Source of the DNA: Opitutales bacterium
GTDB lineage: Bacteria; Verrucomicrobiota; Verrucomicrobiia; Opitutales; Oceanipulchritudinaceae
Direction of reading: 5' to 3'
Assembly: GCA_020831485.1 (NCBI GenBank)
Contig: JAFIGG010000009.1
Coordinates: 1-64,000, forward strand
DNA length: 64,000 nt
A program made the translations under genes and the position numbers. The notes under the pieces are model-generated. The model was not told the DNA's origin, did no database searches, and was given only the letters and a program-made list of their open reading frames with translations. Positions 53,706 through 58,054 of this stretch are shown piece by piece; positions within the stretch are counted from its first letter, which is position 1, and the number at the start of each line of letters is the position of its first letter.

Positions 53706-54314
53706 TTACGCATCTTCCAGCACCGCTTCGATCTCTTTGCGCAACTGACTGTGGTCAGTCGCGACCGGAAAATCCGGATGTGCGCTGCGCATGTTTTCAG
53801 GGGGACGGAAGAGGATGCCGTGGTCTGCGGACTGGAGCATGGTGAGGTCGTTCCAGGAGTCGCCGGCGGCGATGATACGGAAATTGAGGGACTGCAGGGC
53901 TTTGACGGCCTTGCGCTTCTGGTCTGGTTGGCGCAGGCAGTAGTTGCGGATGCGGCCGTTTTCGTCGATGTCGAGCTCGTGGCAGAACATCGTTGGATTC
54001 CCCAGTTGGGCCATCAGAGGGGCCGAGAACTGGACAAAGGTGTCGGACAGAATGATCAGCCGCGTGCGCTGGGTCAGCCATTGGGTAAACTCTACGGCTC
54101 CGGGCAGGGGCTTGAGGTCGCGGATCGCGTCGTGAATGGCCGGAAGGGTGAGTCCGTGTTTGTCGAGGATGTCGAGGCGGTAACGCATCAAAACATCGTA
54201 ATCAGGCTCGTCGCGAGTCGTGCGGCGGAGCTCGTCAATGCCGGTCGCTTCCGCAACCGCAATCCAGAATTCAGGGAGGAGCACGCCCTCGAGATCGAGA
54301 CAAACTAAATCCAT
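53706..54314 (-). CDS. thrH: ThrH-like phosphoserine phosphatase / homoserine phosphotransferase
   Basis: A 202-residue HAD-family protein. The ATG at 54314 starts MDLVCLDLEGVLLPEFW, the standard ThrH N-terminus with the nucleophile region DLEGV; motif II is LIILSDTF and motif IV GDSWNDLTML. Length is close to the Pseudomonas protein (205). ThrH hydrolyses phosphoserine and can pass the phosphate to homoserine. The gene is convergent to the epimerase with only 18 bases between and diverges from the SQR gene. Confidence 0.85.
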   Translation of the reverse strand: MDLVCLDLEGVLLPEFWIAVAEATGIDELRRTTRDEPDYDVLMRYRLDILDKHGLTLPAIHDAIRDLKPLPGAVEFTQWLTQRTRLIILSDTFVQFSAPLMAQLGNPTMFCHELDIDENGRIRNYCLRQPDQKRKAVKALQSLNFRIIAAGDSWNDLTMLQSADHGILFRPPENMRSAHPDFPVATDHSQLRKEIEAVLEDA

Positions 54315-54462
54315 GCTGCGAATTGATGCGGCCGCCGAGGGAACTGTCAACTGGTTTACCCTCGGGCTAGTCATAAGACTTTTTTGTCGATTAAGGTTGA
54401 ATTATCTCATCCTAATATTACTAAATGATTCAGTAGACATAATAATAATCCCCCGAGAACAC

Positions 54463-55839
54463 ATGAATCCAGATATTCCTCAATCTTCTTCTTCTGAAAC
54501 TCCAAACGCTGGAATCTCAAGGCGAAGGGCCTTGAAGATGATGGGCATCGGTGCCGGAGTACTGGTGGCTGGAGGAGCTGCCGGGGGCTATGGCTATCGG
54601 AGGTCATTGCGACTGTCGTCCTCCGAAGCTCGCCAGGTAGAGAAGGCCCATTTCTTGGTTGCAGGCGGGAGTATCGGTGGATTGACCGTCGCCGCGCGCC
54701 TGCTGCGGGGCGTGCCTAATGCGAAGGTCACTGTGATCGAACCGCGCTCCGTGCACCACTACCAGCCAGGCTATACGCTGGTCGGAGCAGGGGTGTATAA
54801 GGAATCGGATGTACTCTTTGACCAGGGCTCTTTGATGCAGGATGAAATGCGCTGGGTGAAGGACTACGTGGAGGCCTTTGAACCGGAACATAACCGAGTG
54901 GTCACGCGGGGAGGCGAACGCATTGACTACGACTATCTGATTGTGGGATTGGGGGTCGAAACAGATTGGGATTCGACTGAAGGTCTGTCAGCGGCACTTG
55001 AGACGCCTTATGCAGCGAACATTTATGACCTGAAATCGAGCTCCAAATACTGGCAACTGGCGAAGGGCTTTGAGGGTGGAGATGCCGTGTTTACCTTTCC
55101 GACTGGGTACGTGAAGTGTGGCGGGGCGCCGCAGAAAATTTCATTTTTGTCCGAAGATCTTTGGCGTTCACAGGGTAAGCGGGATCGTGTCAACGTGCAC
55201 TTCCACACTCCGCAAGCTGCTTTGTTTCCAGCGGTTCCCGCGGTCAATGAGGTGGTAACGCCGATGATGGAGAAGCGCGGCTTGAATCTGCATTACCGCC
55301 AGGCGCTGCGGGCAGTGGATCCTTCGACGCGCACCGCAATCTTTGAACAGTTGGACGGAAATGGCGGAAGCCGTGAACTCCGGCAACATTATGACCTGCT
55401 CCACGCTATGCCGCGCTTCCGGACACCGGCGCCGCTGCGCAACGGGCCTTTGACCGCGGAAGGCATTGGCGGGCAATTGGAGGTGGATCGACACACACTA
55501 CAGCACAAGCGCTTTCCGAATGTATTCGGAGTAGGTGACTGCGCTGGAACGGGAGCGGCCAAAACCGCAGCAACCATCCGCAAGCAGGCTCCGGTTGTGG
55601 TGCAGAATCTATTCGATGCCGCGCTTGGGCGCTCGTTGAGCGGTGTTTACGATGGCGCTTCCGGTTGCCCCCTGCTGACGCGCTATGGGCGCTGCATGAT
55701 GTTTGAGTTCGATTACAATGGCAACCTGGTTAACGAATGGATGTATCAACCCACCAAGGAAACCCGCCGCTGGTGGCAGTTTAAAGTGCACGGGCTCAAG
55801 CGCATGTACCGGCACGTTATGCTGAACGGCTGGGTCTAA
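54463..55839 (+). CDS. Sulfide:quinone oxidoreductase (SQRDL type) with Tat-like signal
   Basis: A 458-residue FAD oxidoreductase. The ATG at 54463 is favoured because a twin-arginine-type leader follows (SRRRALKMMGIGAGVLVAGG, about residues 19-38). The FAD motif is LVAGGSIGGLTVAARL, and the C-terminal FAD contact is GVGDCAGTGAAKTAA. The two redox Cys of the mitochondrial SQRDL-like branch are in the expected settings: Cys219 (YVKCGGAPQK) and Cys402 (GCPLLTRYGR). It would oxidise sulfide and pass electrons to quinone. The Tat-like leader implies placement on the periplasmic side. Confidence 0.85.
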   Translation: MNPDIPQSSSSETPNAGISRRRALKMMGIGAGVLVAGGAAGGYGYRRSLRLSSSEARQVEKAHFLVAGGSIGGLTVAARLLRGVPNAKVTVIEPRSVHHYQPGYTLVGAGVYKESDVLFDQGSLMQDEMRWVKDYVEAFEPEHNRVVTRGGERIDYDYLIVGLGVETDWDSTEGLSAALETPYAANIYDLKSSSKYWQLAKGFEGGDAVFTFPTGYVKCGGAPQKISFLSEDLWRSQGKRDRVNVHFHTPQAALFPAVPAVNEVVTPMMEKRGLNLHYRQALRAVDPSTRTAIFEQLDGNGGSRELRQHYDLLHAMPRFRTPAPLRNGPLTAEGIGGQLEVDRHTLQHKRFPNVFGVGDCAGTGAAKTAATIRKQAPVVVQNLFDAALGRSLSGVYDGASGCPLLTRYGRCMMFEFDYNGNLVNEWMYQPTKETRRWWQFKVHGLKRMYRHVMLNGWV

Positions 55840-55855
55840 GGCCTCAACGGCAACT

Positions 55856-58054
55856 CTACTCGTTTACGAGCTTGCGCCGGTCGTCTGAGACCACACTGTC
55901 CGGGAGCGACTGGCAGGCTTTCAATAGGAAAACGGGCATCTTACCGACTGCAATCCGCTGGCCAGAGTGGGTGTCGTTGACCTGCCCGTCCAGATGCAAT
56001 ACCCGGGTGACCTGCGAAGGCACAGCCATCCAATCGGGTTGCATGCTATAGGCTACGCTGCACGAGTCGAAATCGAAGCGGCTTAGAGTGCCCGAAGTGG
56101 TATGCGAACGAAAAGTGGAGTTGGCCAGAAGTTCCGCCAGCAGGCGAAATGCCTGGCAGGCCGGTGTGCTGAAGTCCTTGTCGCGCTCATTGCAGAGCCC
56201 GAACCCCCTTGAGGCCAGTCGCCACCACCAGACACGTTCGACGGAGCCGCTGCAAAGGCTGATCAGGTAGTAGCGGATCATGTAGGCTGCATAGGTCTCG
56301 TCGTCCACGTGCAGCGGACTCTCTTTGCTATTAGGGAAAACATAGCCACAGGTGATCGGAGAATAGGATCCGGCGTTTTCGCGTGGCCAGTTGGTCTCCG
56401 TGATGTAGAATCCCCGGGTCTGGTAATGATCAGCAATCGCCTTGCCCAATACGCATTTCTCCAGCAGCGAAAACGAACCCTGGAAACCCTCGGGAGGGCC
56501 GCAGCGGTCTACGTATAAGTGACAGGAGATCGCATCCACTTCCTGCTGCACCCGCTTCATGAGTGGTGGGTAGTAGTGGTATTCAAAGTCATTGACCGGT
56601 GGTCCGAGGAAAACGAGCTGAAGGTAGCGTTTGCGCAGTTGAGGAACACCGTTCCATAATGCCGCCACCTCATCGAGTTTCCAAAGCCCCCACTTTACCC
56701 GGTTCAGCGCGTGCCCAAATTCGACATGCGTGATGTATGGGTGCAATGCTTGCAGTGCTTCTTCCGTGAATTGCTCCCAGCTCTCAGGGCGGAGGACTGA
56801 GTTGCGGCATTGAATCAGTCCGATCGAAACCTCGTGGCCTTTGGATTTGAGCCTTTGCGCAGCGGAAACAGCGATTTTTAAATGTGACGAACCGAGATGG
56901 TGATAGACCCTCAGGAACACTGATATCCCCGGCAGGGATTCAAGAAAACGCAAGCGCTCCTCAAGCTGAGGTGTGTTGATTTCCAATGACATGCCGATAC
57001 GGTTCTTCATGTCCACGGGCTTCTGGTAGGCGGATTCGCGGACACGGATGTATTGGCGGCGAATTCCCGGCAGCTGAGGAAGGCTGTCGGCAATAATACG
57101 GCAGATGTCCAGACGGCTTCGGTATTTGTGGCGGCACTTGCTTTCCAATACAACCGAGGGCTGGCCGCTTCGCTCATCCCAAAGCCAGGTGTCTTTGTAA
57201 TTGGGGCTGCCGTCGGGAAGGCCGACGAACTTCTTGCTGTGAACCCATGTTCGAATCGGGTGTCGGTACTTGCGGCTTTCGTTGTGAAGGGTGCGGCGTG
57301 CCCGGAAGAGCCTTTCCCAGCGATTGAACTCGGCGGGAACCACTTCGTCATTGAAATAGTTGTGGAAGAAGATTTTGCGCAGGAAAGAGGGGATTTCCAG
57401 ATTCGCCAGATCCTGAGCCCGCTGGCGCAGGCTCAACTCGCTGTGGATGCGCCCTCGGTTGAGGTCGATGAACTGAACCCGATCCCAGTGACCGTTGGCG
57501 ATGCGGCGCAGGAGAATGTTCTGTCCGCCAAGGTCGTTGTGCTGAAACCCACAGTCGTGCATCCGCCGAACCTCGGCGGCCACCAGGCGCAGCAGCGCAA
57601 GGTAGCGATGGCAGTCCGGATCTTCGCGCAGCATTCGGTTCATCTCGGCATAGAGATCCGTTGCGTCTTCTATGAATTCCGACAGAAAATAGCTGTCACT
57701 CAACTGTCGGCCGGACCAGCGTTCGAAGTAGCCAAGTGGCTTGGGCACGCCCACTCCACGTTCGGCAAGGTGGAAGGCGTGCTTGAATGAGCGGGCGGCT
57801 TTGCTGCCCACCATCGAATAATGCAGACTGCGTAGCCACTTTGGGCGGGCAAAGGACTTGATGCAGATGCTTCGCTCTTTGCGGGCCTTTAGCTCCATGC
57901 GGTAGAGCTGATTGCGCAGGCGGTAAATAGGTTGACACTCGTTGGCGGCAATTTTTGCGGGAATGTCGCGCAGCCAGGTTTTGCTGGTCTTTTCAGAAAT
58001 TCCGTCGCTGAAGCATAGTTGCCATTGGTCAAAAATCTGAGTAGAATAATTCAT
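55856..58054 (-). CDS. Kinase-like (WaaP/InaA family) protein fused to a TIM-barrel hydrolase-like domain
   Basis: A 732-residue protein with no signal peptide. Residues 40-260 form a protein-kinase-like fold of the lipopolysaccharide core kinase type: Lys66 (ICIKSF), HNDLGGQN (His172, Asp174, Asn179) and FIDLNR (Asp197). Residues about 350-640 look like a TIM-barrel glycosidase domain: MSLEINTP, VSIGLIQCR, VEFGHALNRVKWG, and YITETNWP with an acidic residue in the nucleophile-like place. The final 90 residues are beta-like (RVLHLDGQVN). A role in phosphorylating and trimming a surface glycan is inference; the exact donor and acceptor are unknown. Confidence 0.7.
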   Translation of the reverse strand: MNYSTQIFDQWQLCFSDGISEKTSKTWLRDIPAKIAANECQPIYRLRNQLYRMELKARKERSICIKSFARPKWLRSLHYSMVGSKAARSFKHAFHLAERGVGVPKPLGYFERWSGRQLSDSYFLSEFIEDATDLYAEMNRMLREDPDCHRYLALLRLVAAEVRRMHDCGFQHNDLGGQNILLRRIANGHWDRVQFIDLNRGRIHSELSLRQRAQDLANLEIPSFLRKIFFHNYFNDEVVPAEFNRWERLFRARRTLHNESRKYRHPIRTWVHSKKFVGLPDGSPNYKDTWLWDERSGQPSVVLESKCRHKYRSRLDICRIIADSLPQLPGIRRQYIRVRESAYQKPVDMKNRIGMSLEINTPQLEERLRFLESLPGISVFLRVYHHLGSSHLKIAVSAAQRLKSKGHEVSIGLIQCRNSVLRPESWEQFTEEALQALHPYITHVEFGHALNRVKWGLWKLDEVAALWNGVPQLRKRYLQLVFLGPPVNDFEYHYYPPLMKRVQQEVDAISCHLYVDRCGPPEGFQGSFSLLEKCVLGKAIADHYQTRGFYITETNWPRENAGSYSPITCGYVFPNSKESPLHVDDETYAAYMIRYYLISLCSGSVERVWWWRLASRGFGLCNERDKDFSTPACQAFRLLAELLANSTFRSHTTSGTLSRFDFDSCSVAYSMQPDWMAVPSQVTRVLHLDGQVNDTHSGQRIAVGKMPVFLLKACQSLPDSVVSDDRRKLVNE

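Follow-up and report, generated by a model that had tools for sequence, protein, structure and literature searches.

Kinases of the WaaP type phosphorylate non-anomeric hydroxyls, and we know of no WaaP/RfaP or KdkA enzyme that carries a glycosidase-like barrel. The barrel of TreS-Mak belongs to family GH13. In published work, TreS-Mak supplies the barrel enzyme GlgE with maltose 1-phosphate (PMC11046441), the catalytic set of WaaP is described as K51/HRD/D188 (PMC6147952), and E165 and E276 are named as key to the activity of PslG (PMC9075953).

The gene analysed here lies in the genome of an Opitutales bacterium (assembly GCA_020831485.1, contig JAFIGG010000009.1), in a stretch of 64,000 nucleotides that was analysed as a whole and is referred to below as the window. 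The original prediction had proposed a cytoplasmic fusion of a WaaP/InaA-type kinase with a glycosidase-like barrel, which would serve a surface-glycan assembly step not covered by known systems.

Gene structure and domain content

The predicted coordinates proved correct, and the strand, which the prediction had not given, was found to be minus. In this orientation the gene runs over 732 codons from ATG to stop with no break; a plus-strand reading of the same interval contains 15 stops.

55856-58054, minus strand: whole gene of the 732-aa kinase-barrel fusion (ATG 58054-58052, stop 55858-55856)

The gene is present in a single copy in its own genome, and its G + C content of 0.558 (GC3 0.68) is typical of the window (0.547). 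All of the motifs quoted previously were recovered in the translation (HNDLGGQN, residues 172-179; FIDLNR, residues 195-200; YITETNWP, residues 550-557), and the combination of a PF06293 match with a predicted (beta/alpha)8 barrel plus beta-sandwich bears out the proposed pairing of a kinase and a glycosidase-fold barrel in a single chain. Residue conservation is given below for an alignment of 35 rows, which is a chosen subset of the full-length matches (L023, L031, L032 and the truncated L009 are among those excluded) and contains several N-terminally trimmed rows whose open frame continued upstream.

Kinase domain and cellular location

57257-57922, minus strand: Kdo/WaaP-type (eukaryotic-protein-kinase-like) kinase domain, residues about 45-266 (PF06293 and WaaP 6dfl matches)
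57857-57859, minus strand: K66, putative ATP-binding lysine by analogy with K51 of WaaP (invariant, 35/35)
57518-57541, minus strand: catalytic loop HNDLGGQN, residues 172-179 (H172 35/35, D174 34/35, N179 35/35)
57455-57466, minus strand: DLNR, residues 197-200, containing the equivalent of the DFG aspartate (D197 35/35, R200 34/35)

The kinase family itself is already known. Residues 75-221 matched PF06293 (Kdo) in Pfam with an E-value of 4.5e-15 and 56.1 bits (gathering cut-off 21.3), the same family was found in all 35 aligned relatives, and the lysine, HxD loop and Mg-binding aspartate of the family are all present in the alignment as K66, H172/D174 and D197, respectively. The solved structure closest to the kinase half was WaaP 6dfl (E 0.00067 alone, 3e-15 with a family profile). 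The curated NCBIfam cut-offs were missed for both the Kdo kinase KdkA (40.2 vs. 142 bits) and RfaP (37.9 vs. 170 bits). A five-row model of the whole protein was of poor quality (pLDDT 59.9); the catalytic region of the kinase had low confidence in this model and was assessed from its sequence only.

Hydropathy analysis revealed no hydrophobic segment in the window protein (best 19-residue mean 0.84), the N-terminus included (best 15-residue mean 0.04, hydropathy only). A hydrophobic N-terminus occurs in one of the 35 aligned proteins, L055, and may there result from an extended start in the ORF call. Because such a segment is missing from the window protein and found in only this one relative, we infer that both halves are cytoplasmic, unlike PslG; the cytoplasmic nature of the protein had been part of the original prediction, and hydropathy gave no sign of secretion in the window protein.

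Fold of the barrel module

57161-57187, minus strand: motif WLWDERSGQ, residues 290-298, in the N-terminal arm of the barrel module (W290, W292, D293, S296 and Q298 invariant, 35/35)
56117-57031, minus strand: GH39/PslG-like (beta/alpha)8 barrel, residues about 342-646 (AF2 model, structure and profile matches)
55919-56116, minus strand: C-terminal beta-sandwich, residues 647-712 (strands in the predicted model)

An AF2 model of residues 342-732, based on five sequences (pLDDT 78.2, pTM 0.83), comprises eight beta/alpha units followed by a C-terminal beta-sandwich. Foldseek searches with the barrel model retrieved GH30 and GH39 enzymes (E about 1e-10 to 1e-9), and a re-check of this list with VIA-align ranked the GH39 structure 5jvk first (Z 28.8, rmsd 3.3, 335 residues) and PslG 9g17 second (Z 27.5, rmsd 3.5, 348 residues). 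Structure prediction of the second half thus confirmed, in the model, the hydrolase-like barrel, with GH39 and PslG as the best matches.

When a profile built from 26 barrels was compared with one of 14 proteins that the GH39 family model had retrieved, the two matched with a probability of 98.2% (E 3e-13). This match hinges on the pooled GH39 set, as its two parts alone gave 5.4% and 90.6%; a comparison of the barrel with the kinase profile is no control, because both share residues about 280-300. When the barrel sequence profile was compared with the PDB, a single weak GH39 match was obtained, which was 5jvk (E 0.15). The barrel half of the window protein had no match in Pfam (at E 0.1), NCBIfam or PHROGs, and a search of its own genome with Glyco_hydro_39 (PF01229) returned nothing at E 0.001. 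Over the 35 aligned members, Pfam reported the Kdo/WaaP kinase, other kinase-like families and two weak matches confined to single members. The motif WDPxSxQPY, related to WLWDERSGQ, opens the stand-alone barrels described further below.

Active site of the barrel

56681-56722, minus strand: beta-4 motif EFGHALNRVKWGLW, residues 445-458, in which H448-A449 align with the GH-A 'NE'
56489-56527, minus strand: beta-6 motif SCHLYVDRCGPPE, residues 510-522 (L513, Y514, D516, R517, P521 and E522 invariant, 35/35)
56384-56407, minus strand: beta-7 motif YITETNWP, residues 550-557, in which E553 aligns with the GH39 nucleophile

The alignment of the barrel and GH39 profiles places the beta-4 'NE' on H448-A449 and the beta-7 glutamate on E553. 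None of the 77 barrels checked has an acidic residue at the acid/base position, which is always Ala, Thr, Gly or Cys (A449 in the window). Stand-alone barrels have NA where GH39 has NE, consistent with the acid having been lost directly. At the nucleophile position, E553 is Glu in 56 of the 57 kinase-barrel fusions, a locus set larger than the 35-row alignment, with a gap in the remaining one; the equivalent residue is present in both split barrels (2/2), in the four stand-alone barrels (4/4) and in the one barrel with an odd N-terminus (1/1), so that 63 of these 64 barrels retain the beta-7 nucleophile (one gap). It is absent from all reverse-type barrels (0/13). The residues Q415, N451, R452, W455 and D489 are nearly universal in every barrel type, which suggests that the barrels have retained a sugar-binding site, though one of a new kind.

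Because the acid/base position is non-acidic throughout, the barrel is unlikely to act as a normal retaining hydrolase. A glycan-binding or cutting function had been put forward for this half, of which plain cutting was not supported, with the acid/base Glu missing from every barrel checked and the nucleophile also lost in one sister group; on the same two grounds, binding appears at least as likely as cutting.

Distribution and gene arrangements

A search for the same fusion across 387 sampled genomes of the phylum identified a single frame spanning the two domains in 51 (with an internal stop in two of these), and a scan of genome contigs added four loci, of which three carry the title Verrucomicrobia or Opitutaceae and the fourth Natronospirillum. 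The fusion is recurrent and not a one-off, and the gene is widespread in one bacterial phylum, probably the Verrucomicrobiota, in which these relatives would also place the window. The pairing is more than chance, since full-length relatives with identical domain order recur across the phylum. Matches of any kind were obtained in 127 of the 387 genomes, most of those beyond the 51 being the kinase alone. The Natronospirillum-titled contig also has a NusG-family gene, and 30 of 321 genomes sampled from the class of this locus had a match of any kind; four lone barrels and three reverse fusions were among these matches. A phage origin has no support, as two scans of viral contigs gave no relatives.

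Besides the kinase-barrel order, a split form was found in two genomes, in which kinase and barrel are separate genes overlapping by 11 bases as called (gene calls in the loci are longest-ORF calls, some of which are shadow frames in high-GC loci), and the reverse order, barrel then kinase, was found in ten loci. In the calculated trees, the reverse-type kinases formed one group (100/99), as did the reverse-type barrels (100/100) and the barrels of the kinase-barrel proteins (92/90), and the split barrels clustered with the lone ones. From these separate groupings, the pairing would either have arisen more than once or have been rearranged.

The stand-alone barrels are about 350-390 aa long, and the fetched stretches around them contain no kinase (L124:8697-9743, L125:9060-10154, L126:1156-2232 and L127:9100-10284, all on the minus strand). 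Three of these four loci have a gene that we take to resemble ribose-5-phosphate isomerase. A second kind of glycosidase-kinase fusion was observed in genome G383, where a GH2 beta-galactosidase-like protein of 1018 aa with a C-terminal Kdo/WaaP kinase (L050:2328-5384, minus strand) is encoded divergently from a reverse-type barrel gene.

Gene neighborhood

In the window, the genes neighboring the fusion encode a sulfide:quinone-reductase-like protein, a short-chain dehydrogenase and a photolyase-related protein. Within the stretch read, no LPS genes lie next to the fusion, and the lpxK and Kdo-transferase genes of the same genome are located on contigs other than that of the fusion. The sulfide:quinone-reductase-like protein (54220-55839, plus strand; NF049943, E 1.3e-49, under the cut-off) has what we take, by its appearance, to be a twin-arginine-like leader. 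Upstream of the fusion gene, an APH-type phosphotransferase (PF01636; 51664-52776, plus strand) appears to belong to a run that also includes amino-sugar and NDP-sugar genes.

Among relatives, lpxK was located within 12 kb of the fusion, at distances of 2.3-11.6 kb, in 11 of 50 lpxK-bearing genomes (52 searched with Pfam) vs. a chance expectation of 0.4-0.7, where lpxK was chosen after it had appeared among the recurrent neighbors and related genomes are not independent; the 11 genomes are spread over six families of the listing. In 11 of 57 loci, the gene immediately upstream of the fusion encodes a glycosyltransferase, which is of family GT2 in nine loci, GT4 in one and a heptosyltransferase-like GT9 in one. 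Any of GT2, GT9, GT4 or LpxK was present in 30 of 57 loci vs. 2 of 20 control stretches, counts that favor the loci because the neighbor profiles were built from clusters recurring in these same loci, a bias that the Pfam-based lpxK test escapes only in part. The lpxK and upstream glycosyltransferase linkage in relatives therefore points to lipid A-core assembly. Of the 51 genomes that possess a Kdo-transferase gene, none has it close to the fusion (0/51). Linkage to lipid A and core genes was seen in relatives and not in the window's own locus.

One reverse fusion lies about 5.5 kb from an HldE gene, in a locus that also contains an RfaP-type double kinase and a YrbL gene. MsbA-like transporters showed no enrichment (5 of 58 loci vs. 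4 of 20 control stretches). A CPBP/Rce1-like membrane protease is encoded directly upstream of the fusion on the same strand in 12 of 57 loci (L056, L057, L064, L065, L068, L070, L071, L072, L084, L095, L097 and L099), and a phosphoglucose isomerase gene occurs near the reverse-type fusion in four of 12 loci (L041, L044, L046 and L052).

Functional interpretation

The explanation preferred here, to which we give about an even chance, is a cytoplasmic core-type sugar kinase joined to a glycan-reading, GH39-derived barrel in surface-glycolipid assembly. The Kdo/WaaP-family kinase would act in this assembly, most likely that of the lipid A-core of lipopolysaccharide, and the GH39/PslG-derived barrel would bind the glycan acceptor in cis and help to present it to the kinase. 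Proteins of the kinase-barrel branch, which retain the beta-7 glutamate, may in addition carry out a non-canonical step of glycosyl transfer. The barrel is more likely a module that reads glycans or transfers them in an unusual way than an ordinary sugar cutter. The kinase pairing outlives barrel catalysis, because the reverse group, with no nucleophile in its 13 barrels, keeps a kinase in the same chain in ten loci. We infer the phosphorylated sugar, the cytoplasmic location and the reading rather than cutting of glycan by the barrel. Counting against the preferred explanation are the strict conservation of E553, a hint that this residue does chemistry and not just binding, the window without LPS neighbors, the missing Kdo-transferase linkage (0/51), the low KdkA and RfaP scores, and the four lone barrels without a kinase in the fetched stretch.

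An unlikely alternative is that the barrel is a nucleophile-only glycosyl-transfer enzyme, in which E553 would form the glycosyl-enzyme and a good leaving group would make the acid unneeded; this leaving group could be, for example, a sugar phosphate from the fused kinase, so that phosphorylation would be coupled to glycosyl transfer. The preference of WaaP-type kinases for non-anomeric hydroxyls argues against such a coupling, as do the reverse-type members, which retain the pairing without E553. The persistence of E553 in 63 of 64 barrels (one gap) despite the universal loss of the acid/base residue is in line with it, the invariant basic residues R417, R452, K454 and R517 could hold an anion, and TreS-Mak offers a precedent for a chain of a kinase and a glycosidase-fold barrel (PMC11046441). 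Improbable, to a degree beyond the former, is a two-step enzyme whose kinase would make a glycosyl phosphate or phospho-glycan and whose acid-less, nucleophile-bearing barrel would carry out a retaining transfer in cytoplasmic surface-glycolipid assembly. If true, a glycosidase fold would here have turned into a phosphate-driven transferase.

Rated lower again is a role outside LPS synthesis, in a pathway for a soluble sugar or a storage/exopolysaccharide, which the linkage of relatives to lpxK, heptosyltransferase and glycosyltransferase genes speaks against, and which would suit the sugar-metabolic and redox genes neighboring the fusion in the window as well as the phosphoglucose isomerase gene in four of 12 reverse-type loci. 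Least probable is an active hydrolase with a relocated acid (e.g., H448, D489, E491 or D516) that would trim a glycan intermediate in the cytoplasm, a view that corresponds to the cutting reading of the original prediction, parallels the proposed trimming of Psl by PslG and agrees with the PslG/GH39-like fold and nucleophile and with several invariant acidic residues near strand ends, but conflicts with the non-acidic acid/base position of the clan in 77 of 77 barrels and with the naming of both E165 and E276 as key to PslG activity (PMC9075953).

Comparison with known systems

The statement that the assembly step is not covered by known systems is fair for the architecture, within the libraries and searches used, but the kinase family itself is known and TreS-Mak is a precedent for a chain of a kinase and a glycosidase barrel. 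A literature search, with subscription journals mostly outside its coverage, found no paper on this kinase-barrel fusion. The barrel of the window protein matches nothing in Pfam or NCBIfam and in this sense represents an uncatalogued family. Its members recur together with LPS-type kinases, in three gene arrangements, throughout the phylum, and the family also occurs outside it. The barrel lends itself to studying how a glycosidase fold changes once its acid catalyst has been lost, and offers a way into envelope assembly in bacteria for which LPS biosynthesis is sparsely represented in the literature found.

The kinase half belongs to the same PF06293 family as the heptose(I) kinase WaaP/RfaP and the Kdo kinase KdkA and has the same catalytic residue set, but scores far under the curated cut-offs of either named enzyme. 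Its residues K66, H172, D174, N179 and D197 correspond to the K51/HRD/D188 set given for WaaP (PMC6147952), and the absence of an N-terminal hydrophobic segment fits the cytoplasmic WaaP. With PslG of Pseudomonas aeruginosa and GH39, the window protein has the barrel and the C-terminal beta-sandwich in common (Z 27.3-28.8 over 335-349 residues) and has kept the beta-7 nucleophile, but it differs from both by the Ala at the acid/base Glu and by the kinase fusion. Furthermore, PslG is assigned to the inner membrane and periplasm (PMC9075953), whereas the window protein has no visible export signal. TreS-Mak (TreS-Pep2) of the GlgE pathway (PMC11046441) also combines a sugar kinase with a TIM-barrel enzyme, either as a single chain or as a complex, but with a kinase of a different family and in alpha-glucan metabolism, and is thus a precedent for the general layout rather than a relative.
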